Part shown: piece by piece, positions 9,866 to 31,453 of the stretch
Position numbering within the stretch: position 1 is the stretch's first letter
How the letters are laid out: every line of letters starts with the position of its first letter
IMG/VR virus record: IMGVR_UViG_3300010885_015540
Location: 1 to 31,453 of that record
Source of the DNA: a virus
Reading direction: 5' to 3' (one strand)
Length of the DNA stretch: 31,453 nt
The notes under the pieces: model-generated
Seen by the model: the letters and a program-made list of their open reading frames with translations, nothing else
Databases searched by the model: none
Told to the model about the DNA's origin: nothing
Made by a program: the position numbers and the translations under genes

Positions 9866-9974
9866 GAATAGAAACCCTATTGCTAAAGTAGTAACTACGC
9901 TTGTGCCTAAAGTAATACCTAACAAAAAGAAATATAAAAGAATAAGAAAGGTTATAAATGAGCTTGATACATAA
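9834..9974 (+). CDS. Very basic small protein
   Basis: A 46-residue protein in which about 40 percent of residues are Lys or Arg: MSKKRKRRVLKNRNPIAK and later NKKKYKRIRKV. The RNPIAK segment and the terminal KKKYKRK-like block resemble small basic proteins found in many phages (I recall a DUF7230-like pattern). It overlaps the previous gene by 32 nt and the AdoMetDC-like gene by 17 nt. The ribosome-binding site is weak. DNA or RNA binding is likely from charge alone. Confidence 0.55.
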   Translation: MSKKRKRRVLKNRNPIAKVVTTLVPKVIPNKKKYKRIRKVINELDT

Positions 9975-10404
9975 ACATGTGCTAATTAATCTTAAAGTAG
10001 CTAAGCCTCCTCGTGATGGCGAAGAAGTAGAGTTCTTTCTGGCTTTCCTTATTAAACGTGTCAATATGACTATTGCTCGTGCTGATACCATTGCCAAGAA
10101 CCCTCAGGGCTATTACTGTGACACTTTAGGTAATCAAGGTGCTACTGGTACAGGTATATTAGAAACAAGTCATACAGCCCTACATACATGGGATGCTGAC
10201 CATCCAGCTAAATTTGACTTTGATTTATACTCTTGTAGTGATTTTGATGTACAAAATATCTTGACATTATGTCAATGTTTTGATATAATTAGCGGTAATT
10301 ACGTTATCTTTGATAGAGGAGATAGAATTACTCTAATTGAAGAAGGTGATGTAGGCGAAGACGGAATTATATTAACCAATCAACCAGTTAAGAAAGTAGC
10401 ATAA
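9958..10404 (+). CDS. S-adenosylmethionine decarboxylase-like pyruvoyl enzyme
   Basis: A 148-residue homologue of bacterial AdoMet decarboxylase proenzyme (SpeD/SpeH), which makes decarboxylated AdoMet for spermidine synthesis. Core region GTGILETSHTALHTW contains the expected self-cleaving Ser (S71) and the proton-transfer His (H76, +5 as in Thermotoga S63/H68). FDFDLYSCSDFD provides the catalytic Cys (C93). The residue before S71 is Thr, where many bacterial enzymes have Glu (ESH). Homologues with altered specificity towards ornithine or arginine are known, so the substrate is open. GAAAGG is 6 nt upstream of the ATG. No spermidine synthase gene is in the window. It lies among nucleotide-metabolism genes and is coupled to the next gene by TAATG. 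Confidence 0.75.
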   Translation: MSLIHKHVLINLKVAKPPRDGEEVEFFLAFLIKRVNMTIARADTIAKNPQGYYCDTLGNQGATGTGILETSHTALHTWDADHPAKFDFDLYSCSDFDVQNILTLCQCFDIISGNYVIFDRGDRITLIEEGDVGEDGIILTNQPVKKVA

Positions 10405-11645: not shown

Positions 11646-11793
11646 ATTAAAAATAGAATTAACTGAACATAGCTTAAAAAAAATGGTACTTAAGAATTTA
11701 ATCTCAAGTACCATAAATGAAGAGGACTATGAAGGGTATTTCTATTTAGACCAACTAGGTTGTCCAGTGTTCGTAGTGGAAAGTAAAGATTAA
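11635..11793 (+). CDS. Small hypothetical protein, last gene of the rightward arm
   Basis: A 52-residue frame with AAAGGA (11621-11626) upstream and an 11-nt overlap with the MazG-like gene. Sequence begins MAIKLKIELTEHSLKKMVL and ends in strand-like GCPVFVVESKD. No family recognised. Its stop codon overlaps the stop of the converging minus-strand gene. A terminator for leftward transcripts lies inside it (11676-11714), so it is also covered by antisense RNA. Confidence 0.6.
   Translation: MAIKLKIELTEHSLKKMVLKNLISSTINEEDYEGYFYLDQLGCPVFVVESKD
11676..11714 (-). terminator. Intrinsic terminator for leftward transcripts
   Basis: Read on the minus strand: ATGGTACTT, a 14-nt loop, AAGTACCAT (9 bp perfect stem), then seven T. 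On the plus strand the stem is at 11683-11691 and 11706-11714, with the A run at 11676-11682. It would end the structural and lysis transcript about 80-115 nt beyond the convergent stop codons, inside the last plus-strand gene. Confidence 0.7.
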
Positions 11794-12065
11794 CAATCCC
11801 ACTTGCGTAAAGATTTATTAATACGTGAGTTAGGGTTATTTGCTGTTTTACTAGACGTATTTTGCTTTTTCATGCCCTCCATTCTGGCACAAAACGATTT
11901 ACGTCTAGCAGCAGATTTAGGTGATTTAGAAGCTTCTTCTTTTGATACAGGAGCCTTTAAATTGCCTCCAGTAGATTTATTATAAGAGGCACGTCCTTTA
12001 GCATTTAAGCCGCCTTCTGGGTTCTTGCCTTCTTTACGTGTCCATGCTGGAGTTTTCTTTGCCAT
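11790..12065 (-). CDS. Conserved small phage protein, DUF6321-like
   Basis: A 91-residue basic protein with the pattern KTPAWTRKEGKNPEGGLNAKGRASYN, then GGNLKAPVSKEEASKSP, RRKSFCARMEGM and a C-terminal SLRKWDC. This layout is widespread in phages and I recall it as DUF6321; its role is not established. It is the last gene of the minus-strand arm, and its stop overlaps that of the converging plus-strand gene. The leader contains a terminator on the opposite strand. Confidence 0.8.
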   Translation of the reverse strand: MAKKTPAWTRKEGKNPEGGLNAKGRASYNKSTGGNLKAPVSKEEASKSPKSAARRKSFCARMEGMKKQNTSSKTANNPNSRINKSLRKWDC

Positions 12066-12144: not shown

Positions 12145-12309
12145 CTACTTGGTCTTTTTTGGTGCTTTCATGGACTTTGCCATACTCTTATCCATTTTAA
12201 CTTCTTTTTTGCTGCCTTCTTTCATTCCAGGCATTTTCTTGTCTGCCTTTTTATCAGCAGCACTTTTTTCAAACATTTTGTAATTAAATTTAGCTGGTTT
12301 CTTAGCCAT
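12145..12309 (-). CDS. Small lysine/methionine-rich protein
   Basis: A 54-residue protein starting MAKKPAKFNYKMFEKSAADKK and ending KAPKKTK, with many Lys and Met and almost no hydrophobic core. AAGGA lies about 10 nt upstream, and the ATG overlaps the stop of the outer-membrane spanin gene (TAATG). Small KKPAKFN-type basic proteins at the end of structural arms occur in many T7-like marine phages; the function is unknown. Confidence 0.65.
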   Translation of the reverse strand: MAKKPAKFNYKMFEKSAADKKADKKMPGMKEGSKKEVKMDKSMAKSMKAPKKTK

Positions 12310-12509
12310 TAGTTAGTATCCTTATTAGTTTGGTTAGTATTACTACACGAATCATACAGACGCATCAAGCTACCTGTATAACTTACTAAATCACCATTAG
12401 TCCTTCCTATAAAAGGCTCTCTAGCTGGACAAGTAGATATAATTTTACTTGAGCAACCGGAGAGCGTCAGCAGGGATATCAGTGTTAAAGCAAGTATCTT
12501 TTTTGGCAT
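12309..12509 (-). CDS. Outer-membrane spanin lipoprotein (Rz1-like)
   Basis: A 66-residue lipoprotein with signal peptide MPKKILALTLISLLTLSGC: basic start, hydrophobic core and lipobox L16-S17-G18-C19. Ser after the Cys favours outer-membrane sorting. The mature part is only 48 residues, with Cys and Asn/Thr-rich sequence. It begins inside the inner-membrane spanin gene in another frame (65-nt overlap), the classic Rz/Rz1 arrangement. The pair fuses inner and outer membranes in the last step of Gram-negative lysis, so the host is Gram-negative. The identification rests on lipobox, size and overlap. Confidence 0.8.
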   Translation of the reverse strand: MPKKILALTLISLLTLSGCSSKIISTCPAREPFIGRTNGDLVSYTGSLMRLYDSCSNTNQTNKDTN

Positions 12510-12699
12510 TTGTATTACCTAAATCTTGTTGAAATTTTATTATCGCAGCAGGAGCTTTTTGAGCCTGGTCTAGTTGACTAGTTCTAGTAGCTAACTCCTC
12601 AGCATCTAAGAACTTATTATGCACATGTATAGTCATTAAAATTGTAAATGCAGTGTATACAGCAAGTCCTATTAGCTTAGATTGTAAACTAAGAATCAT
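12445..12699 (-). CDS. Inner-membrane spanin (Rz-like)
   Basis: An 84-residue protein with one N-terminal membrane segment (about residues 6-26), then a helical periplasmic part likely to form a coiled coil (LDAEELATRTSQLDQAQ) and a C-terminus DTCFNTDIPADALRLLK of the kind seen in Rz proteins. The ATG at 12699 is chosen because GGAG lies 7 nt upstream; the frame extends to a GTG at 12705. It overlaps the candidate holin by 11 nt and contains the start of the lipoprotein spanin. Together they span the periplasm. Confidence 0.8.
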   Translation of the reverse strand: MILSLQSKLIGLAVYTAFTILMTIHVHNKFLDAEELATRTSQLDQAQKAPAAIIKFQQDLGNTNAKKDTCFNTDIPADALRLLK

Positions 12700-12943
12700 T
12701 ACCACTCTCCGTAAAATTTTTAGCAGCTACAGCGCTACCTCCAAAACCTATGTACTGACCAAAGCCTGATATCCAGTCATTAGCATGAGTTAAGAAGATA
12801 GCATCTGGACTTAAATAAGAATCACGTAACGTAAGTGCTATATATAATATTGCACCAAGTATAAATAATACACGTACAGGACATATACTTTTCCCATTCT
12901 TTTCAGTAAAAGCATCCTTGACGTATTTATTAATCTTAGACAT
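12689..12943 (-). CDS. Candidate holin
   Basis: An 84-residue membrane protein. A charged N-terminus (MSKINKYVKDAFTEKNGK) leads to a hydrophobic segment at about residues 23-39, and a second weaker Gly-rich one at about 57-74; the C-terminus is polar. Position immediately after the GH108 lysozyme domain and before the spanin pair makes holin the best guess. The sequence alone does not prove pore formation. The ATG lies within the last codons of the 1686-residue gene (8-nt overlap). Confidence 0.6.
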   Translation of the reverse strand: MSKINKYVKDAFTEKNGKSICPVRVLFILGAILYIALTLRDSYLSPDAIFLTHANDWISGFGQYIGFGGSAVAAKNFTESGNDS

Positions 12944-13469
12944 CAGATGTATCTGTTGGCATTGGGGATATTGAACTAAGTCGCATCATCCAACCTTTTT
13001 TAAATTTACTTTGACTGGGATCATTTTTGATTATTGTACTATATAATGATTCACGACGTTTGATTATAGCGGTGCGTAAAATATCTTCTGGTATACGATG
13101 AATAGCGTTTAACGTACCAGTTCCGATATGACCATCAACAGGTATTTTTTCACCTAAATCATTAAGTGCACGCTGAATAACTTTAGACATTCCTGGTATG
13201 CCATGATTGATATTACCATCAAATACAAGATCTTGTATTGTACGAGGCATTTCATCTACTTTACCATCAATCCAATATAATTTATCAAATATAGAAATGG
13301 CATCTTCTTTGGTGAGGTTTTTAATATCATTAATTGTTGCATCTGGATTAACTAGTTTAAGAGTATTAAGTGTAATACCATGATTAGTGGCACCACCTTT
13401 ATCAGAAGAATCATTAACAAACCCACCCTCTAATTTAAGGGTACGAGCAAACACTTTATCTTTATACAT
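12936..13469 (-). CDS. Possible free GH108 endolysin from an internal start
   Basis: In-frame internal start within the 1686-residue gene. ATG at 13469 (residue 1510) has AAGGA 9 nt upstream (13479-13483 on the plus strand). It would give a 177-residue protein, MYKDKVFARTLKLEGGF..., which is the full length of a typical stand-alone GH108 lysozyme. No other endolysin gene is seen in the window although holin and spanin genes follow directly. A second ATG at 13478 abuts the AAGGA and is a poorer start. The call is inference from the motif, length and context. Confidence 0.45.
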   Translation of the reverse strand: MYKDKVFARTLKLEGGFVNDSSDKGGATNHGITLNTLKLVNPDATINDIKNLTKEDAISIFDKLYWIDGKVDEMPRTIQDLVFDGNINHGIPGMSKVIQRALNDLGEKIPVDGHIGTGTLNAIHRIPEDILRTAIIKRRESLYSTIIKNDPSQSKFKKGWMMRLSSISPMPTDTSDV

Positions 13470-16400
13470 ATTATCCATTCCTTGATTAATATTAGGTAGT
13501 ATCTTTTTAAAAAACCCCTCTTTTTCCTGGGGTTTATTACTATTATCAGTAGCTACCTTTTGAAAAAATGTTTGAGCCATAGGCTCTACAACTGTTACAG
13601 TATGACTATCCATTGGCGCCTTTTTATCGCCATTATACATGGAATTTACATCATTGTCAACCTTTTTATCTGGTACAATATCTTCAACAATTTTAGTTAA
13701 ACCACTACGAGTTTGACGCTCGTACCATAAATTATCTGAATTAGGGTCTAGTTTGACTTTTTCAATGAATGAACGCATCATATCAATGTTATTCATCCGG
13801 TATTGATTCATGGCTTTACGTTTTTCGGGATCACCTAATAGTTCAGTTTCAGGTGTTTGCGTACCCTGTAATTGATCTTTAGGGGCTTTAGCAACTAATA
13901 AAGAGCTTTTTCTATTAGGTACAGTAGCTTTACTGATAGCTTTCCAGTCCTCATAATAGGCTAATTCTGGTGCATTATCAATTTCAAACTGGCTTAAGTC
14001 GTTGTAAGCGTTGGCATCAATAGCAGTACGGTTAATGATAGCTGTATGTTCTGCGTCAATACTTTTAAGATATTTACCCATATTACTAAATTGAGTTTCA
14101 ATACCTTCACGAGGTACATCAGAAGTATTGCCAGTTACTATGCTCGCAAATGGAATAGAACGATTCTCAATACGTGGGGCTTCAGTTCCAGTAACCGCAC
14201 CATATACCATATCAGCAGCAGCTAATGTGTACGTGGAAGCACTTGAGAACATTGAATTAAGTAGATATTGTGATACAGCAGGACTTAGATTTATTCCATG
14301 TTTATCTAAGTTAAAACTAAAATCAACTAATACAGTTGGAGTAGTATCATTATATTGTGCCCATGATGAAGAATCCTTGAGATACTCAGGTATAATAGGC
14401 TTACCTTGAAAATCAGTATTAGTTGCAAGTGCCATAGCATCTGACGCAATTGGAGGTAATACTGAAGAAGGCTGAGCAATTCCAGTAACATAATCCATCC
14501 ATGCAGCTAATACATCTTTTGGATTAAGTTTCTTTGTTTCCTCATTACCATCAAGTATTTTAGGTATATCATTACTTATACCTTCATGTACTCTACTACC
14601 AATTTCTTGCATTAAATAAGACATGGTAGTCTCAATTTTAGGTAATGCACGACCATACACCCAACCTAAACGAAGTGGTACATAGTCGTTTACACTTTTA
14701 GAACCTGGGTAATAAATGGGTACAATGTCTTTTTTAATATTTGGGTCTAGTTTATCAATGTAAGGTACACCATCAGTATCAGTAAACTGTCTATTATATT
14801 GGCCTACAGTGGCATAAGCACCGTATAGCATCATTACATTACGCGATAAACGGAATGGCTCATAGCTAGCTAGCTGCACCATTCTATCTGTAGAGTTGAT
14901 AAATGACCGAGCAAATGGCACTACACGAAGTACTTTATCAAATTGTACTTGTGAACCACGTTGAGTGAAGTTAACACCTAAGTTACGAGCAGCAAATATA
15001 GCTGCTTCATGCGCCTGTTCTTCAGTATAACCTTGAGCTAAGCCATCTTTCATCATCCAGTCATATAATGTGACTCGTGGAGCCATATCAAATCTATTAG
15101 CAAATCCTTCTAAACCATGTTTTATATGCGATGACGCACTTTCTTTATACGTTCCTTCAGCTACATCTTTTGTTAATTTACCTAAACCATCCTCACGTAC
15201 TTTTTTAGTTACAGTATTGCCTTCAAAAGTAGGCATACTTACATCAATAAGATCCGACTTAACAATGCTAGGTAAATGCCAACCAAGAGTTTTATTATAT
15301 GGTATTATGGTGTTACGTTCGGATTTACCTGTTAAATTTTTACCTCTATCAGAGCCATAACCAATGTTGTTAGTTATATTATCGTATAATTCAGGGTTTA
15401 ACTCTTTGGCAAATAGGTTCTTTACGTTAGATGCAGGATATTTTAACTTTTGCCAAAAGCTAGTTTTAGCTGATACCATAGCATCCATTGTCTCACGCTG
15501 GAAATTCCGCATAGAGAACTCAGGGTTAAGTACAATGAAGTTACGTTTAAAGTTAGTAAATTGTACTAGCTTTTCATAAGCAGAAGTAGTCCCTTCCCAC
15601 ATACGAGATTGTGAGAACTCTTGGAATACTTGGGGGTCAGTTATGGTAAGTTGGAGTTTACCGCCGTTAATGTCAAATACAATATTTCCTACCTTCTGAA
15701 CACGATCCTCAACAAGTGGAGTAATATCAGAAGCAGCCCAACGTCGTTTGCCACCATTGTTAATTTCCTCAATAGCTTTCATTACATCTGCTTTTTTTTC
15801 TCTGAATAATACTTGAAAATCAGCATCAGTAGCTTTACTTAAAACACTCATAAGAGTACCAGTACGGTACTGAGTTTGTTCAACTTTACGTATAGTATTA
15901 ACAATATTTTGGGTAGTAGTTACTAGTGGGTCTTTTAATTCACCTGTGCTACTAATTTTACGGAATTTAAATGGCTCAGTTACACCGCCTGAATTATGAA
16001 CTTCAACATTAGCATAAGTAAAATCATCAACTTCACGCCAAGCAGGAGTGTAGTTAGGGTGAGCAGCACGTATTGCATCAGCTTCAGTTTGAGATATTTT
16101 ACCTGAATTAACAAGTGCATTTAATAATTTGCCGTTAATGGCATTTTTATTATTTAAGAAATATTGGGCAGCAGGGCCAATCCTATTATCACCATTATTA
16201 GTGTATTTGGCTATATTTGCAGCAACTTCTTCACGGGTCATGAAAGATGATTTATCTTCCATTTCTTTGAGTACACCATTCCAGTAGGCTTTGTCATCTG
16301 CTGTGATAGTAGGTATAGCTAGTTGTTCTTTAGCCTGAGCAGTTATTCTATCTATATTAGCGTAGTCATCATACGCGTTATACGTATGCATAATTTCACG

Positions 16401-17996
16401 CATTTCATCTGCGTCTAACCCCATTTGACGGGCTTTTACCATAGAAGCATTGAAATTATCAATAGAAGTATCAGCCACTAGCTTAGAACCAGTGCCTTCA
16501 TTCCAGAGTATACCTACATCTTGCCCATTAGGATTACCTACAATGGATTTCCACCATACGTTACCACGTTGACTGAGGTTTCTAGCCCAAGTCCAATCAC
16601 TATACTCACGTAATGAACGAGTACCAGTTTCAATGCCCATTCTATCTGCAAACTGTTTAGCTACCAAAGATAGCATATTAGTTGCATCAGCTAACTTACT
16701 ACGAATTTGGCCTTCAAGAGTAATAGGTTCGTGCTCAATAGCTGAAGGAGTTAATATAGAGCCATCATCAGGTGTGCTAACATCCATTACAGCACGAGTG
16801 GTTTCAGGGCTATGCCCAGTAGCATCACTTACTTCTTTAGCAAAATCATCAGCTTCTTTATACGCTTCTGGTATGGCTCGCTGTATTAATTCGGCTCTAT
16901 GGTCTGCATTTGCTATATTTTGAGGTAAATGAGTTTCTAGCCGTTGAGTTACCTCTTCTACGCTAGCCCCTGCATCTAACGCGTTACGCACAGGCCATGC
17001 TATATTAGTTTCAAATTGAACATCATTTACTTTAGCACCACCGCTAGCTTTAACTAAATCACGTTCACGTTTCGCAGCAGCACTTGGGTCAAGTATATCA
17101 GATTTTTCTTGTTGAAGTTGAGCTAAGCGTTCTTTGGCACCTGGAGCAGCAGTATCTTTAGCTACTTGATTAATCTCTGCTTGTACTTCATCTACAGTAC
17201 GAATAGCAGGTTTAGCGGCTAAGGCAGCTTCTTGCTGTTCAGCAGTCATTGTAAATGGATTTTTAGCTCCTATATCTACCTGAGCTAATGCTTCATTTTT
17301 AGTTTTAAGAGTTTCTGAATCAAGAAAAGCATTATGTTTAGCTTCTAATTCTGAATCAAATATAGGCTGTTTAGCTGCGTTTATACCAGTTTTAGGGGCT
17401 ACTTCTTCAGCTACTTGAGCAGGTTTAGTAGCTAATTTAGCTGCATTACCAGTTTCACCTATAGGAAGCATAGTTAACCCCGCGGTGAGAAGCTCACCAC
17501 CTTGGTCTACCAGCTTATCTTTATCTTCTTGTGTCAAATCACCCATAGTATTATTAACTATAGGTCGGTAAATTTGTCGTACTACTGTTTCCAATGGGGC
17601 TTGAACTTGTCCTAAAGTGCCACCAACAACACCTAGACCTGCCCTAACTTTATTACTTACATCAAGTAACGGGCTACCTGAAGGTGTAAAATCAGTATTC
17701 ATAGCGTCAGACGTCATTTTTGAATACTTATTACGTATATCAATAGTGTCTTTACCTATTTGTTTAATGCCATCAACAAAAGTATTACCTATAGCACTAG
17801 CACCAGCTTTAATTTTGCTCATGATACCAGTAGGTTTGTCTTCAGATGTTAGAAATTGCTCCACAGTTTGAGTAGGCTTATCTTCAGACATAAGAAATTG
17901 ATCCACATCCTGTTCTGAAGATTGCGGAGTGGGTGTAGTTGGCTTAGAGGTATCAGCATCAAGCCATGCGTCTAAATCAACATCAGTATTATTCAT
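12936..17996 (-). CDS. Giant internal virion (ejection) protein with C-terminal GH108 lysozyme
   Basis: A 1686-residue protein, the counterpart of T7 gp16-type ejection proteins. Residues 1-60 are low complexity, with a 14-residue tandem repeat (DQFLMSEDKPT / EQFLTSEDKPT). Residues about 60-440 are Ala/Gln/Glu-rich helices. The long middle (about 440-1260) includes a region near 800-1150 resembling large polyvalent protein domain LPD38 (NFKRNFIVLNPEFSMRNF, then ARNLGVNFTQRG and PFARSFINS). Residues about 1510-1680 are a GH108 peptidoglycan hydrolase: catalytic E1523 in LEGGF, then DKGGATNHGIT and a C-terminal PG-binding-like part. In T7 the hydrolase sits at the N-terminus of gp16; here it is at the C-terminus, beside the lysis genes. 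The start is coupled by TAATG to the preceding gene. Confidence 0.85.
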   Translation of the reverse strand: MNNTDVDLDAWLDADTSKPTTPTPQSSEQDVDQFLMSEDKPTQTVEQFLTSEDKPTGIMSKIKAGASAIGNTFVDGIKQIGKDTIDIRNKYSKMTSDAMNTDFTPSGSPLLDVSNKVRAGLGVVGGTLGQVQAPLETVVRQIYRPIVNNTMGDLTQEDKDKLVDQGGELLTAGLTMLPIGETGNAAKLATKPAQVAEEVAPKTGINAAKQPIFDSELEAKHNAFLDSETLKTKNEALAQVDIGAKNPFTMTAEQQEAALAAKPAIRTVDEVQAEINQVAKDTAAPGAKERLAQLQQEKSDILDPSAAAKRERDLVKASGGAKVNDVQFETNIAWPVRNALDAGASVEEVTQRLETHLPQNIANADHRAELIQRAIPEAYKEADDFAKEVSDATGHSPETTRAVMDVSTPDDGSILTPSAIEHEPITLEGQIRSKLADATNMLSLVAKQFADRMGIETGTRSLREYSDWTWARNLSQRGNVWWKSIVGNPNGQDVGILWNEGTGSKLVADTSIDNFNASMVKARQMGLDADEMREIMHTYNAYDDYANIDRITAQAKEQLAIPTITADDKAYWNGVLKEMEDKSSFMTREEVAANIAKYTNNGDNRIGPAAQYFLNNKNAINGKLLNALVNSGKISQTEADAIRAAHPNYTPAWREVDDFTYANVEVHNSGGVTEPFKFRKISSTGELKDPLVTTTQNIVNTIRKVEQTQYRTGTLMSVLSKATDADFQVLFREKKADVMKAIEEINNGGKRRWAASDITPLVEDRVQKVGNIVFDINGGKLQLTITDPQVFQEFSQSRMWEGTTSAYEKLVQFTNFKRNFIVLNPEFSMRNFQRETMDAMVSAKTSFWQKLKYPASNVKNLFAKELNPELYDNITNNIGYGSDRGKNLTGKSERNTIIPYNKTLGWHLPSIVKSDLIDVSMPTFEGNTVTKKVREDGLGKLTKDVAEGTYKESASSHIKHGLEGFANRFDMAPRVTLYDWMMKDGLAQGYTEEQAHEAAIFAARNLGVNFTQRGSQVQFDKVLRVVPFARSFINSTDRMVQLASYEPFRLSRNVMMLYGAYATVGQYNRQFTDTDGVPYIDKLDPNIKKDIVPIYYPGSKSVNDYVPLRLGWVYGRALPKIETTMSYLMQEIGSRVHEGISNDIPKILDGNEETKKLNPKDVLAAWMDYVTGIAQPSSVLPPIASDAMALATNTDFQGKPIIPEYLKDSSSWAQYNDTTPTVLVDFSFNLDKHGINLSPAVSQYLLNSMFSSASTYTLAAADMVYGAVTGTEAPRIENRSIPFASIVTGNTSDVPREGIETQFSNMGKYLKSIDAEHTAIINRTAIDANAYNDLSQFEIDNAPELAYYEDWKAISKATVPNRKSSLLVAKAPKDQLQGTQTPETELLGDPEKRKAMNQYRMNNIDMMRSFIEKVKLDPNSDNLWYERQTRSGLTKIVEDIVPDKKVDNDVNSMYNGDKKAPMDSHTVTVVEPMAQTFFQKVATDNSNKPQEKEGFFKKILPNINQGMDNMYKDKVFARTLKLEGGFVNDSSDKGGATNHGITLNTLKLVNPDATINDIKNLTKEDAISIFDKLYWIDGKVDEMPRTIQDLVFDGNINHGIPGMSKVIQRALNDLGEKIPVDGHIGTGTLNAIHRIPEDILRTAIIKRRESLYSTIIKNDPSQSKFKKGWMMRLSSISPMPTDTSDV
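13509..13535 (-). promoter_or_regulatory. Terminator-like hairpin inside the giant virion gene
   Basis: On the minus strand AAACCCC, a 10-nt loop and GGGGTTT are followed by three more T (six T in all after GGGG). It lies about 40 nt upstream of the internal endolysin start, at the junction between virion part and lysozyme domain. The stem is short (4 GC pairs plus 3 AT pairs), so if it works it would be a partial attenuator. Confidence 0.35.
17831..17907 (-). repeat. 42-bp tandem repeat in the giant virion gene
   Basis: Two 35-nt stretches, 17831-17865 and 17873-17907, repeat with a 42-bp period and several base differences. They encode the 14-residue repeat QFL(M/T)SEDKPT near the N-terminus of the ejection protein. 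Confidence 0.6.
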
Positions 17997-22568: not shown

Positions 22569-24254
22569 TTACAGCACCCATTCAACAATAACAGCCCCTT
22601 GGCCACCCGCTGCGCCCGAGTGAGCAGAGGCGCTATAACCACCACCACCACCCGCGCCAACCCCACCACTTTCACCAGCGCCTTGTGAGTTTATGGTACT
22701 TGCTCTACCGCCGCCGCCATAGATTGAGTTTCCGCCATTACCGCCATAAGCGGCATTCCCTTGAGAACAAGCTGGCAAGCCGCCACCTCCTTGAAAAATT
22801 GCATGTGCTGGTCCGCTAGCTGACCCAACAGTACCACCAATATTATTTTTCCCCGCTGGACCACCACCACCACCTGTTGCGGATACAGTCCCTGCTAAAA
22901 AAACAACGCTACTTGTGCCTCCAGCGTTACCTGCGGCGCCTGCGGCACCTGGAGAGCCACCCGCACCGATTGTTATCGCTGACGTTTGTCCTGCTGCGCG
23001 TCCAGTTTCATAGTACCAAGAAGTTCCAGCTGCACCACCGCCCGAACCACCATCATAGCCACCGCCCGAACCACCACCAGCGCCACCACCACCCGTGATT
23101 GTGAATTTAAAGACAGATGTCGATTTTGTCCCTGTTGGGTATGTGAATGTCCCACTTGATGTGAATATCTGGCGATTGATGTTTACATTAGGGAGATTTA
23201 GTAAAGTATTAGCTGTGGCATCAATAGTTTTATTAGTAAAGGTCTCTGTTCCGCTTAAAGTAGCTAAAGTACCAGTGGTAGGTAATGTTATAGACGTAGT
23301 ACCAGTTGCATTAAATGTACGTGAAAACGCACCTGTATGAGTTACATCACCCGCTAAAGTAATTGTATTGGAGTTAGCTACACCAGTACCACCGTTAGCT
23401 GGAGGAAGAACACCTGATATGTGAGTAGTTAACCCAATTTTACCATAAGAAGGAGCTACACCGGCACCACCACTAATCAGAGCGTTACCTGTAGCAACGT
23501 CAGCTAATTTAGATAAAGCAGTCGTAGTGCTTGCGTATAATATATCACCTACAGCATAAGATGTCTGACCTGTACCTCCTACAGTAGCTCCAATAGCAGT
23601 AGCATTCCATACACCAGTACCTATAGTTCCTACAGTTGTTAGGGAAGATGTGACAACAGTACTATTTAATATAGTTCCAGTTAAAGTACCAGCAGCAGCA
23701 GTAATAGTAATATCTGATGTACCATCAAATGATGTGCCATTAATAGATCGTGCTGTCAATAATTTAGTAGCTGTGGCAGCATTACCAGTAATGTTAATAC
23801 CAGCAGTACCAGCGGATATATTGGCAGCAGTTAAATTAGTTAAGTTAGCACCAGATACAGCACCAAATGACCCTGACCAAGTGCCAGTAGTTACCGTACC
23901 TACAGTTGTAATGGTGTTTTGCCCAACATAAGTTGAATCAATAGTAATAGTAGGATCAGCAGCAGCGCCAGAACCATTAGTTACGGTGATTTTACCCGCA
24001 GTACCAGTAATAGTCCTATTAGCCCAAGTGTTTGAACCTGTAGCAGCTACAATCCCAGCAGTAGTGCTAGTAAAACCTACAATACCAGCAGTAGGAATTT
24101 TAGCTCCGCCACCAGTTGTACCATCATGACTATGCCCCGTTGCAGAATCAGCAAAAGACTGAATTGCGTTATACTCATTATTAAAATGAGATGCTTGAAT
24201 GGTACCACCAGTAACGATAGAACCAGCAGATTGTCTTGTATAGCCTAGAGCCAT
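22569..24254 (-). CDS. Tail fibre with glycine-rich receptor-binding tip
   Basis: A 561-residue tail fibre. The N-terminus (TIQASHFNNEYNAIQSF, then GHSHDGTTGGG) is a typical virion-attachment segment of podovirus fibres. Residues about 60-350 are Thr/Gly/Ala repeats forming a shaft. From about 365 (FTSSGTFTYPTGT) the tip begins: FKFTITGGGGAGGG, many GGGG runs, ending GGQGAVIVEWVL. Such glycine-rich ends form polyglycine-helix adhesins in other phages. The tip DNA is about 60 percent G+C in places, against about 30 percent in the neighbouring nozzle gene. It binds the host receptor and determines host range. Confidence 0.85.
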   Translation of the reverse strand: MALGYTRQSAGSIVTGGTIQASHFNNEYNAIQSFADSATGHSHDGTTGGGAKIPTAGIVGFTSTTAGIVAATGSNTWANRTITGTAGKITVTNGSGAAADPTITIDSTYVGQNTITTVGTVTTGTWSGSFGAVSGANLTNLTAANISAGTAGINITGNAATATKLLTARSINGTSFDGTSDITITAAAGTLTGTILNSTVVTSSLTTVGTIGTGVWNATAIGATVGGTGQTSYAVGDILYASTTTALSKLADVATGNALISGGAGVAPSYGKIGLTTHISGVLPPANGGTGVANSNTITLAGDVTHTGAFSRTFNATGTTSITLPTTGTLATLSGTETFTNKTIDATANTLLNLPNVNINRQIFTSSGTFTYPTGTKSTSVFKFTITGGGGAGGGSGGGYDGGSGGGAAGTSWYYETGRAAGQTSAITIGAGGSPGAAGAAGNAGGTSSVVFLAGTVSATGGGGGPAGKNNIGGTVGSASGPAHAIFQGGGGLPACSQGNAAYGGNGGNSIYGGGGRASTINSQGAGESGGVGAGGGGGYSASAHSGAAGGQGAVIVEWVL

Positions 24255-25822
24255 TATCTACGACCTTTTACGCTGAATTGTACTTGAAATGAGTCTATTC
24301 TAAATGGGCCTGAATCATCAGTGCAAACAAATTGAAAAGCCCCAAAGAATCCTGAACCTATTAAATTTTTTTTAATTAATGGGTACACAAATACCCCATA
24401 TTTACTTGTATCATATACCGCAGATATAGCTCCATATTGAGCTGCTGCTTGTTGATTTGGTAGAGGTTGTGGAAGTGGTTGTATTATAGGTATTTGTCTA
24501 TCTAAAATTAATTGCACTGTAACAACTTTTAACTGACCTTCTATTTGTGAAAATATATCAAGTTTTTGAAATACCTTACGCAAAGTAGCATCATCAAAAG
24601 TTAAATCAGGAGTTTTATATATAGCTTCAATACTACGCCCATCAAAAGTATTACCGGATTCTAGTGTATATACATAACCAGAATTATATGCTCCAATAAC
24701 ACAAAGTTCATTATTATTATAAAATGCGCTATCAGCACAATAAGGTTTAATACCTTTCATTAATGCCCATTCATACTGGCCATGAGGAGTAATTGGAGTA
24801 TCTTGTAATTTGCCTATAACACCTAGGCAATCTGCTTCTGGTAAATTTGGGTTATTTACAAATAATCTAAACTGACTTTTGCGGCGCACACAACAAGTAG
24901 AGTATTGATATTCAGTAAATGAAGATTGTAAAATATCTTTAATAACTGGTTGTATAGATTTTGAAACTAATGATAATTCAATATCATTTAATCGTTCTGT
25001 ACCGGCGTAAGAGCGCAATCCATCAGTGGAACCATAGATTAAATCCCCTCCAACTTCTTGTATTGTATCAGAAGATATACAACCTACTCTATTAGTAACA
25101 TCCTGTATAACAAAGTTAGCTTTACTAGTTCCACTTAATTTTTTTATACTTCTTTGGCAGAATATAATAAGAGTCTCTCTAAATATACCAAAACCCATTA
25201 CAATATCGCCCACATTAATCTCAACAGCACCTAAGGTGCCATCAAAATTGGTGTCAGAATTAGGTACAGATATAGATATAAGAGAACCGGTACCATAACC
25301 AGATAAAATTAGGCTTGTACCAAATAGAATAGCATATTTAGGATTTGATGGAGCTCCAGTACCGTTAATGATAGTTTCTGTAGTTCCATTCCATTTCCAT
25401 GCAGGATTTACTCCATCAGTTTGTACAATAACAGGTGTAGTAATAGAGTAAGTAGTAAATCTAGCTTTATTTACTGACCCTGGACGTGTACTAGAATTTA
25501 ATTTAGTTGACCAACCAGAGCCGTTAGACATATAGATAGCATTATCATTTGTGCTATTATTTTTACGGCAAGCAAATACTCCACCAATTGCGCCAAAACC
25601 TACTTTAACACCTAATATAGGATTGCCAGAAGTACCTGGAACTTCTGTAGAATCGTATTTAGTATATCCATCTATACGACGATATCCACCAGCTACATCA
25701 GGCTCCATATTTTGAAGAATACGTGCTGTGCCAGGAAAATTTGTGCCTTGTAGTAGACTATCTGTGTCTAAAATAAGCCCACCCTGACAGCTAATAGGTT
25801 TTGATGTCCATCTATCAACCAT
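24254..25822 (-). CDS. Tail nozzle / tail tubular protein B-like
   Basis: A 522-residue beta-rich protein probably forming the tail nozzle through which DNA passes (T7 gp12 or P22 gp10 type). The opening GLILDTDSLLQGTNFPGTARILQNMEPDVAGGYRR is typical: removal of a start segment, then N-M-x-x-x-x-G-G-Y-R. Repeated strand motifs (SLILSGYGTGS, DLIYGSTDGLRSY, ELCVIGAYNSGYVY) fit a beta-propeller. Coupled by TAATG to the genes on both sides, between the adaptor and the fibre. Confidence 0.8.
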   Translation of the reverse strand: MVDRWTSKPISCQGGLILDTDSLLQGTNFPGTARILQNMEPDVAGGYRRIDGYTKYDSTEVPGTSGNPILGVKVGFGAIGGVFACRKNNSTNDNAIYMSNGSGWSTKLNSSTRPGSVNKARFTTYSITTPVIVQTDGVNPAWKWNGTTETIINGTGAPSNPKYAILFGTSLILSGYGTGSLISISVPNSDTNFDGTLGAVEINVGDIVMGFGIFRETLIIFCQRSIKKLSGTSKANFVIQDVTNRVGCISSDTIQEVGGDLIYGSTDGLRSYAGTERLNDIELSLVSKSIQPVIKDILQSSFTEYQYSTCCVRRKSQFRLFVNNPNLPEADCLGVIGKLQDTPITPHGQYEWALMKGIKPYCADSAFYNNNELCVIGAYNSGYVYTLESGNTFDGRSIEAIYKTPDLTFDDATLRKVFQKLDIFSQIEGQLKVVTVQLILDRQIPIIQPLPQPLPNQQAAAQYGAISAVYDTSKYGVFVYPLIKKNLIGSGFFGAFQFVCTDDSGPFRIDSFQVQFSVKGRR

Positions 25823-31161: not shown

Positions 31162-31453
31162 CTAAACCTGAGGCATAGGAGGTACTTGACCACCATTAAT
31201 ATTTGCACCAGTACCACCACTTATATCTGGTGAGGGTGGAGCTTGACCAGCGTCTCCTTGAGGTGCTTGTTGAATATTATTAACTGTATTTGGCATAGTC
31301 TGACCCATAGACTGTGCAAATAAAATAGCTGTCGTAGGATCATTAACAAACTTTTCGCCATCAAGATCCATATTACGAACAATCTCTTTAACAATTTCAT
31401 CTACTTTAAGGAATGGTGCCACTACAGGATTTGCACCTATTTGTAATAAGGAT
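31162..31453 (-). CDS. Portal protein, C-terminal end (5' partial)
   Basis: The frame is open through the right edge; only about the last 96 residues are in the window. It reads LLQIGANPVVAPFLKVDEIV, then RNMDLDGEKFVNDP, the usual end of the podovirus portal clip/crown region, and finishes in a flexible Pro/Gly/Gln-rich tail (QQAPQGDAGQAPPSP ... GGQVPPMPQV). The portal is the dodecameric DNA gate at one capsid vertex. The GTG at 31422 is not the real start. Confidence 0.75.
   Translation of the reverse strand, partial: SLLQIGANPVVAPFLKVDEIVKEIVRNMDLDGEKFVNDPTTAILFAQSMGQTMPNTVNNIQQAPQGDAGQAPPSPDISGGTGANINGGQVPPMPQV

Follow-up and report, generated by a model that had tools for sequence, protein, structure and literature searches.

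A GH108 lysozyme at the end of a giant predicted phage ejection protein may also be made as a free endolysin from an internal start

The giant structural gene of the phage described here is proposed to be a fusion of an ejection-protein gene with an endolysin gene that has kept the endolysin's expression signals, one gene thereby supplying both the entry and the exit enzyme, a reading that is regarded as moderately probable. One gene probably makes both enzymes because the junction bears an apparent promoter, an apparent ribosome-binding site, and an apparent start codon. Tailed phages normally employ different proteins to pierce peptidoglycan at entry and to destroy it at exit. If the reading is correct, the long product would serve entry and the internally started product exit, which would illustrate a route from endolysin genes to virion lysozymes.

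The window, that is, the whole stretch of DNA that was analysed, is a viral record of 31,453 bases. On sequence grounds, its homologous tail and structural proteins and its gene order place the source phage among the HMO-2011-type (marine-type) podoviruses, which are reported to be dominant in the sea and to have a wide distribution there (PMC9038755). The tail protein at 24254-25822 shares approximately 30-38% identity with those of HMO-2011, CRP-13, HTVC033P, phiM6, and others over most of its length, and the gene order is of the HMO-2011 type, with the structural genes on one strand, the giant gene last, and a convergent replication half next. A strong hairpin with T-runs (11683-11714; 13 pairs, -17.8 kcal/mol) lies between the convergent gene blocks and is probably a bidirectional terminator. 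Since HMO-2011-type genomes mostly measure 53-56 kb, with some relatives larger, the record represents about 31 of 55 kb, roughly 57% of the genome, and about 24 kb is absent. The absent part is the terminase side, including most of the portal, of which a portal-like C-terminal fragment at 31162-31452 is the sole trace in the record. When IMG/VR was scanned with single sequences (the GH108 part, the giant protein, and the tail protein), no usable relatives were obtained, and the relatives discussed below were retrieved through profile scans.

The features of the locus, in window coordinates, are as follows.

12936..17996, minus strand: giant fused ORF of 1686 aa, predicted ejection protein with a C-terminal lysozyme (ORF and position)
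14148..14522, minus strand: LPD38 domain, residues 1159-1283 of the giant protein (Pfam PF18857, 5.7e-15)
13632..13660, minus strand: perfect sigma70-type promoter, TTGACA-N17-TATAAT, inside the giant ORF (motif scan)
13509..13535, minus strand: terminator-like hairpin, AAACCCC-(10 nt)-GGGGTTT with a T-tract, between the promoter and the internal ATG
13479..13483, minus strand: Shine-Dalgarno motif AAGGA of the internal start, 9 nt before ATG 13469
13467..13469, minus strand: internal in-frame ATG (MYKDKVF), with a Shine-Dalgarno motif and at the canonical enzyme start position
12936..13469, minus strand: GH108 plus PG_binding_3 enzyme of 177 aa, the proposed free endolysin (Pfam, predicted structure, fold match)
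12689..12943, minus strand: holin candidate of 84 aa (position and hydropathy only)
12445..12699, minus strand: Rz (inner-membrane spanin) candidate (position and N-terminal hydrophobic stretch)
12309..12509, minus strand: Rz1 spanin lipoprotein with lipobox LSGC (PHROG 456, Rz-like spanin, 1.7e-6)

HMO-2011-type phages have their giant gene, the last of the structural genes, at the position of this giant ORF, whose LPD38 domain is also present in HTVC033P gp52. When aligned by profile to the HTVC033P-like giants, the window's giant protein matches over residues 297-1499; the alignment ends approximately 45 residues short of their C-terminus, and its C-terminal part is weak. Because it nearly reaches the end of those proteins, the GH108 domain appears to have been added after the natural end of the giant. 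Matches of the giant to Bacillus phages comprise a single stretch with 25-28% identity.

The earlier note had described the last 177 of the 1686 residues as a complete GH108 lysozyme, and this description is borne out by Pfam matches above the curated cut-offs and by the fold. Glyco_hydro_108 (PF05838) matches residues 1517-1599 (1e-20; 74.4 bits against a cut-off of 21.2) and PG_binding_3 (PF09374) residues 1604-1673 (3.7e-13; 49.9 bits against 24.6). The structure predicted by AlphaFold2 has block pLDDT values mostly of 94-98 across the enzyme domain and of 69-81 in the 40 residues preceding it, and the best PDB folds for the domain are SagA (7dnp), TtsA (6v40), and NMB1012 (2ikb). With the Glu of the EGG motif invariant among 40 aligned GH108 sequences, the domain is assigned to the GH108 muramidase family and is predicted to cleave peptidoglycan. 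Such enzymes are usually separate proteins, as the same note had stated: all 80 of the closest GH108 loci are unfused to a giant protein. No GH108 domain was found in 45 HMO-type records by a search that recovers the window's own copy and has no positive control among those records, and searches for a close relative carrying the GH108 fusion, which would allow the internal start to be checked for conservation, found none.

At ATG 13469, the AAGGA motif has a 9-nt spacer and an energy of -5.8 kcal/mol. Counted from this ATG, the EGG Glu is residue 14, the commonest position among stand-alone GH108 enzymes (n = 76; range 13-21), so that the ATG proposed earlier as giving a stand-alone enzyme does sit where such enzymes begin. 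Shine-Dalgarno motifs of at least 5 nt precede 4 of 171 in-frame internal ATGs and 12 of 36 annotated starts in the window; at 13469, an in-frame start codon with such a motif coincides with a functional domain boundary. A further in-frame ATG, at 13478, was rejected, as the Shine-Dalgarno motif directly abuts its start codon.

The promoter, read 13660-13632 on the coding strand, lies 191 nt upstream of ATG 13469, and the order on that strand is promoter, hairpin, Shine-Dalgarno motif, and ATG, with promoter, hairpin, and ribosome-binding site inside about 195 nt. Two perfect sigma70 sites occur in the window, where 0.067 would be expected under a first-order Markov null. The second, at 10261-10289 (+), lies inside an S-adenosylmethionine decarboxylase-like gene (9958-10404), and 107 nt separate its predicted transcription start from the next gene. 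Across 1.21 Mb, comprising the window and HMO-type loci that partly overlap, 24 perfect sites were counted; because most of them (20) lie outside ORFs of at least 100 aa, perfect sites behave like real promoters in HMO-type phages. The giant-gene bodies of 42 relatives contain no sigma70 site at 11/12 or better, and HTVC103P, HTVC104P, HTVC115P, and L078 each have a perfect site at that gene's 3' end. In HTVC103P (L092, 26045, +), HTVC104P (L178, 7577, -), and HTVC115P (L177, 6861, -), the promoter overlaps the last bases of the giant gene, and an Hsp20 gene is next. From its position, the window's promoter would be a junction promoter of the same kind as those at the giant 3' ends of relatives, now lying within an ORF because the next gene has been fused in frame.

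The terminator-like hairpin reported just before the internal ATG is present as described. It extends from 13535 to 13512, with a T-tract to 13509, and has a folding energy of -9.9 kcal/mol, a value that 6 of 200 dinucleotide shuffles match. Within the giant gene, the sense strand carries just this one terminator-like element of the kind, where synonymous shuffles lead to an expectation of 0.025; such an element arises in 2.5% of shuffled genes and in 0 of 400 at the observed place. The joint occurrence of the signals was assessed against a null in which synonymous codons were shuffled within the giant gene (n = 4000). A Shine-Dalgarno motif of at least 5 nt at the ATG appeared in 7.5% of shuffles, the promoter in 3.1%, promoter and Shine-Dalgarno motif as strong as observed in 0.6%, and these two with the hairpin in 0 of 4000; as the signals had been seen before testing, these figures are post hoc and serve as guides rather than formal P values.

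Downstream, the ATG of the holin candidate overlaps the stop of the fused ORF (ATGTCTAA) and has no Shine-Dalgarno motif, and holin synthesis is therefore probably coupled to that of the GH108 enzyme. The earlier claim that a holin and both spanins follow the lysozyme is upheld for Rz1 by the PHROG match (its match to PF23793, 1.1e-4, is below the cut-off), while the holin and Rz stay candidates by position and hydropathy. The window ORFs scanned with Pfam, drawn from a record of about 57% of the genome, showed no second muralytic domain. Two small lysine-rich proteins are encoded immediately after the lysis genes, one of 54 aa (12145-12309) and one of 91 aa with a DUF6321 domain (11790-12065); DUF6321 homologues lie near the capsid gene in HTVC103P and HTVC115P.

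Directly behind the giant gene, relatives often have lysis genes that include a separate enzyme, and in most of those examined this slot contains an endolysin gene of its own. The enzyme is an amidase in HTVC033P, L026, L037, L049, L061, L066, L067, L072, L075, and L082, a T4-type lysozyme in L018, L023, and L046, and an SLT-type enzyme in L086 and L089. No recognised enzyme occurs among the post-giant lysis genes of L028, and none occupies the slot in HMO-2011, CRP-13, and L013; the endolysins of HMO-2011 and CRP-13, gp56 (lysozyme) and gp70 (putative endolysin) respectively, are encoded near the terminase, on the side absent from the window record. In the window, the GH108 domain fills the endolysin slot in frame, and the holin, Rz, and Rz1 candidates are next. 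DUF5675 genes were also observed in this slot beside holin, Rz, and Rz1 candidates (L010:16629-17048 and L012:17434-17824), suggesting a lysis role for a family without established function; the L010 gene starts, with a GGAG Shine-Dalgarno motif, inside the last 44 nt of the giant gene.

Under the proposed mechanism, a giant body of the HMO-2011 type (residues 1 to ~1500) would have been fused to the endolysin gene that lies directly downstream in relatives. The full-length 1686-aa protein would be packaged, and its C-terminal lysozyme would open peptidoglycan during DNA entry. At a late stage of infection, the endolysin would be produced as a free 177-aa protein through transcription from the internal promoter (13660), initiation at ATG 13469 on the long transcript, or both; the holin would be added by translational coupling where the reading frames overlap (ATGTCTAA), with Rz and Rz1 next. 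Lying between promoter and ATG, the hairpin may attenuate or delay the short transcript, and can be compared with the terminator that follows the lambda late promoter. It is suggested tentatively, as something that may well not hold, that the buried promoter and the attenuator-like hairpin time the release of the free endolysin, with one lysozyme gene serving entry and exit; on the same tentative reading, the recurrence in HMO-2011-type phages of ejection-protein lysozymes with different enzyme folds suggests that the adjacent endolysin gene was captured repeatedly.

The chief alternative is that the GH108 domain acts at entry only, as a virion lysozyme, with the endolysin gene in the absent part of the genome, the internal start unused, and the promoter, if active, serving only the holin and spanins; this is considered possible, though doubtful. 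It draws on the recurrence of C-terminal lysozymes on giants and other ejection proteins (HTVC103P, HTVC104P, L010, L038, L052, and L058), by which a free enzyme is not necessarily implied. In HTVC103P gp52 and HTVC104P gp54, the final ~170 residues of the giant are a T4-type lysozyme (PF00959). It is the sole match to that family in the two complete genomes, where searches for Amidase_2, SLT, and GH108 were likewise negative; a separate endolysin is thus not recognised by sequence among the families searched. The giants of both phages carry an ATGATG before the lysozyme domain with no Shine-Dalgarno motif, and no internal promoter, while SD-like motifs are found at 24 of 31 starts in HTVC103P. 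The C-terminal domain of the L010 giant resembles the phiKZ gp144 transglycosylase (7e-9), and L010 has its separate DUF5675 gene as well. In L052 (8552-10219), L058 (2397-4118), and L038 (3214-4812), a T4-type lysozyme ends another ejection protein of 533-573 aa, encoded just before the giant. A candidate transglycosylase end on the L012 giant was discarded, the PDB search being empty and the family-scan match below the cut-off. Hydrolase domains are known to be mobile among ejection proteins (PMC8954989).

Several observations thus count against a dual product: HTVC103P and HTVC104P share the architecture without an internal Shine-Dalgarno motif or promoter, L010 combines a transglycosylase-like giant end with a separate gene, the ~24 kb outside the record could hold an endolysin near the terminase, where HMO-2011 and CRP-13 have theirs, synthesis of the short transcript could be stopped by the hairpin, and the Shine-Dalgarno motif alone is a 7.5% event under synonymous shuffling. 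Against an entry-only role, however, the window's lysis cassette contains no further enzyme, in contrast to the cassettes of nearly all relatives whose lysis genes come after the giant, which include one (L028 being the exception), and promoter, hairpin, Shine-Dalgarno motif, and canonical ATG coincide. The earlier proposal that one gene provides both the entry lysozyme and the exit endolysin is accordingly sustained in part: the junction signals, the canonical start, and the separate endolysin in the relatives' slot favour it, but the C-terminal lysozymes of HTVC103P and HTVC104P, probable entry enzymes, lack internal-start signals.

Conversely, the fusion could be a tolerated stop-loss in which the lysozyme matters only as an internally started endolysin and has no entry role. 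This is improbable: the separate post-giant endolysin gene of HTVC033P-like relatives and the 80 unfused GH108 loci agree with it, but other ejection proteins of the family bear lysozymes, and the frame-0 codon signal, which is positive throughout the linker, suggests that the fused product is synthesised and maintained. An assembly artefact, in which a contig error removed a stop or shifted the frame between two genes, is more improbable still, for although the sequence comes from one metagenomic record and lacks confirmation from a close relative, isolates HTVC103P and HTVC104P have such fusions, and the frame-specific codon scores, which penalise stops in other frames so that only positive frame-0 values count, give no sign of a frameshift along the whole linker and leave a frameshift or assembly error in the giant ORF unsupported.

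The closest known systems differ from the proposed dual-product gene in the following respects. T7 gp16 has its hydrolase, a transglycosylase, in residues 1-156 at the N-terminus, in contrast to the C-terminal GH108 of the window's giant, and T7 has a separate lysis amidase. In lambda C/Nu3, M13 II/X, and phiX174 A/A*, the C-terminal part of a protein is also made through an internal start, although these are not lysis enzymes. Like T7 gp16, a giant ejection protein whose peptidoglycan hydrolase domain is used at entry (PMC8954989), the window's giant is a predicted ejection protein with a predicted peptidoglycan hydrolase domain. HTVC103P gp52 and HTVC104P gp54 resemble it more closely, with a lysozyme at the C-terminus of the giant, the last structural gene, but theirs is PF00959 rather than GH108, and the perfect promoter follows the whole gene instead of lying within it. 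Stand-alone phage GH108 endolysins share the domains, length, and start position of the window's enzyme but are separate genes. A virion protein that also yields an endolysin was not found in the literature (open-licence papers). CTP1L, LysIME-EF1, and mycobacteriophage Ms6 LysA each give two in-frame products, the shorter through an internal start (PMC4777826, PMC7098653, PMC6116005); in these, the long product is itself an endolysin, the shorter being a binding-domain subunit or isoform, whereas in the window's gene the long product is predicted to belong to the virion and the short form would be the complete enzyme.
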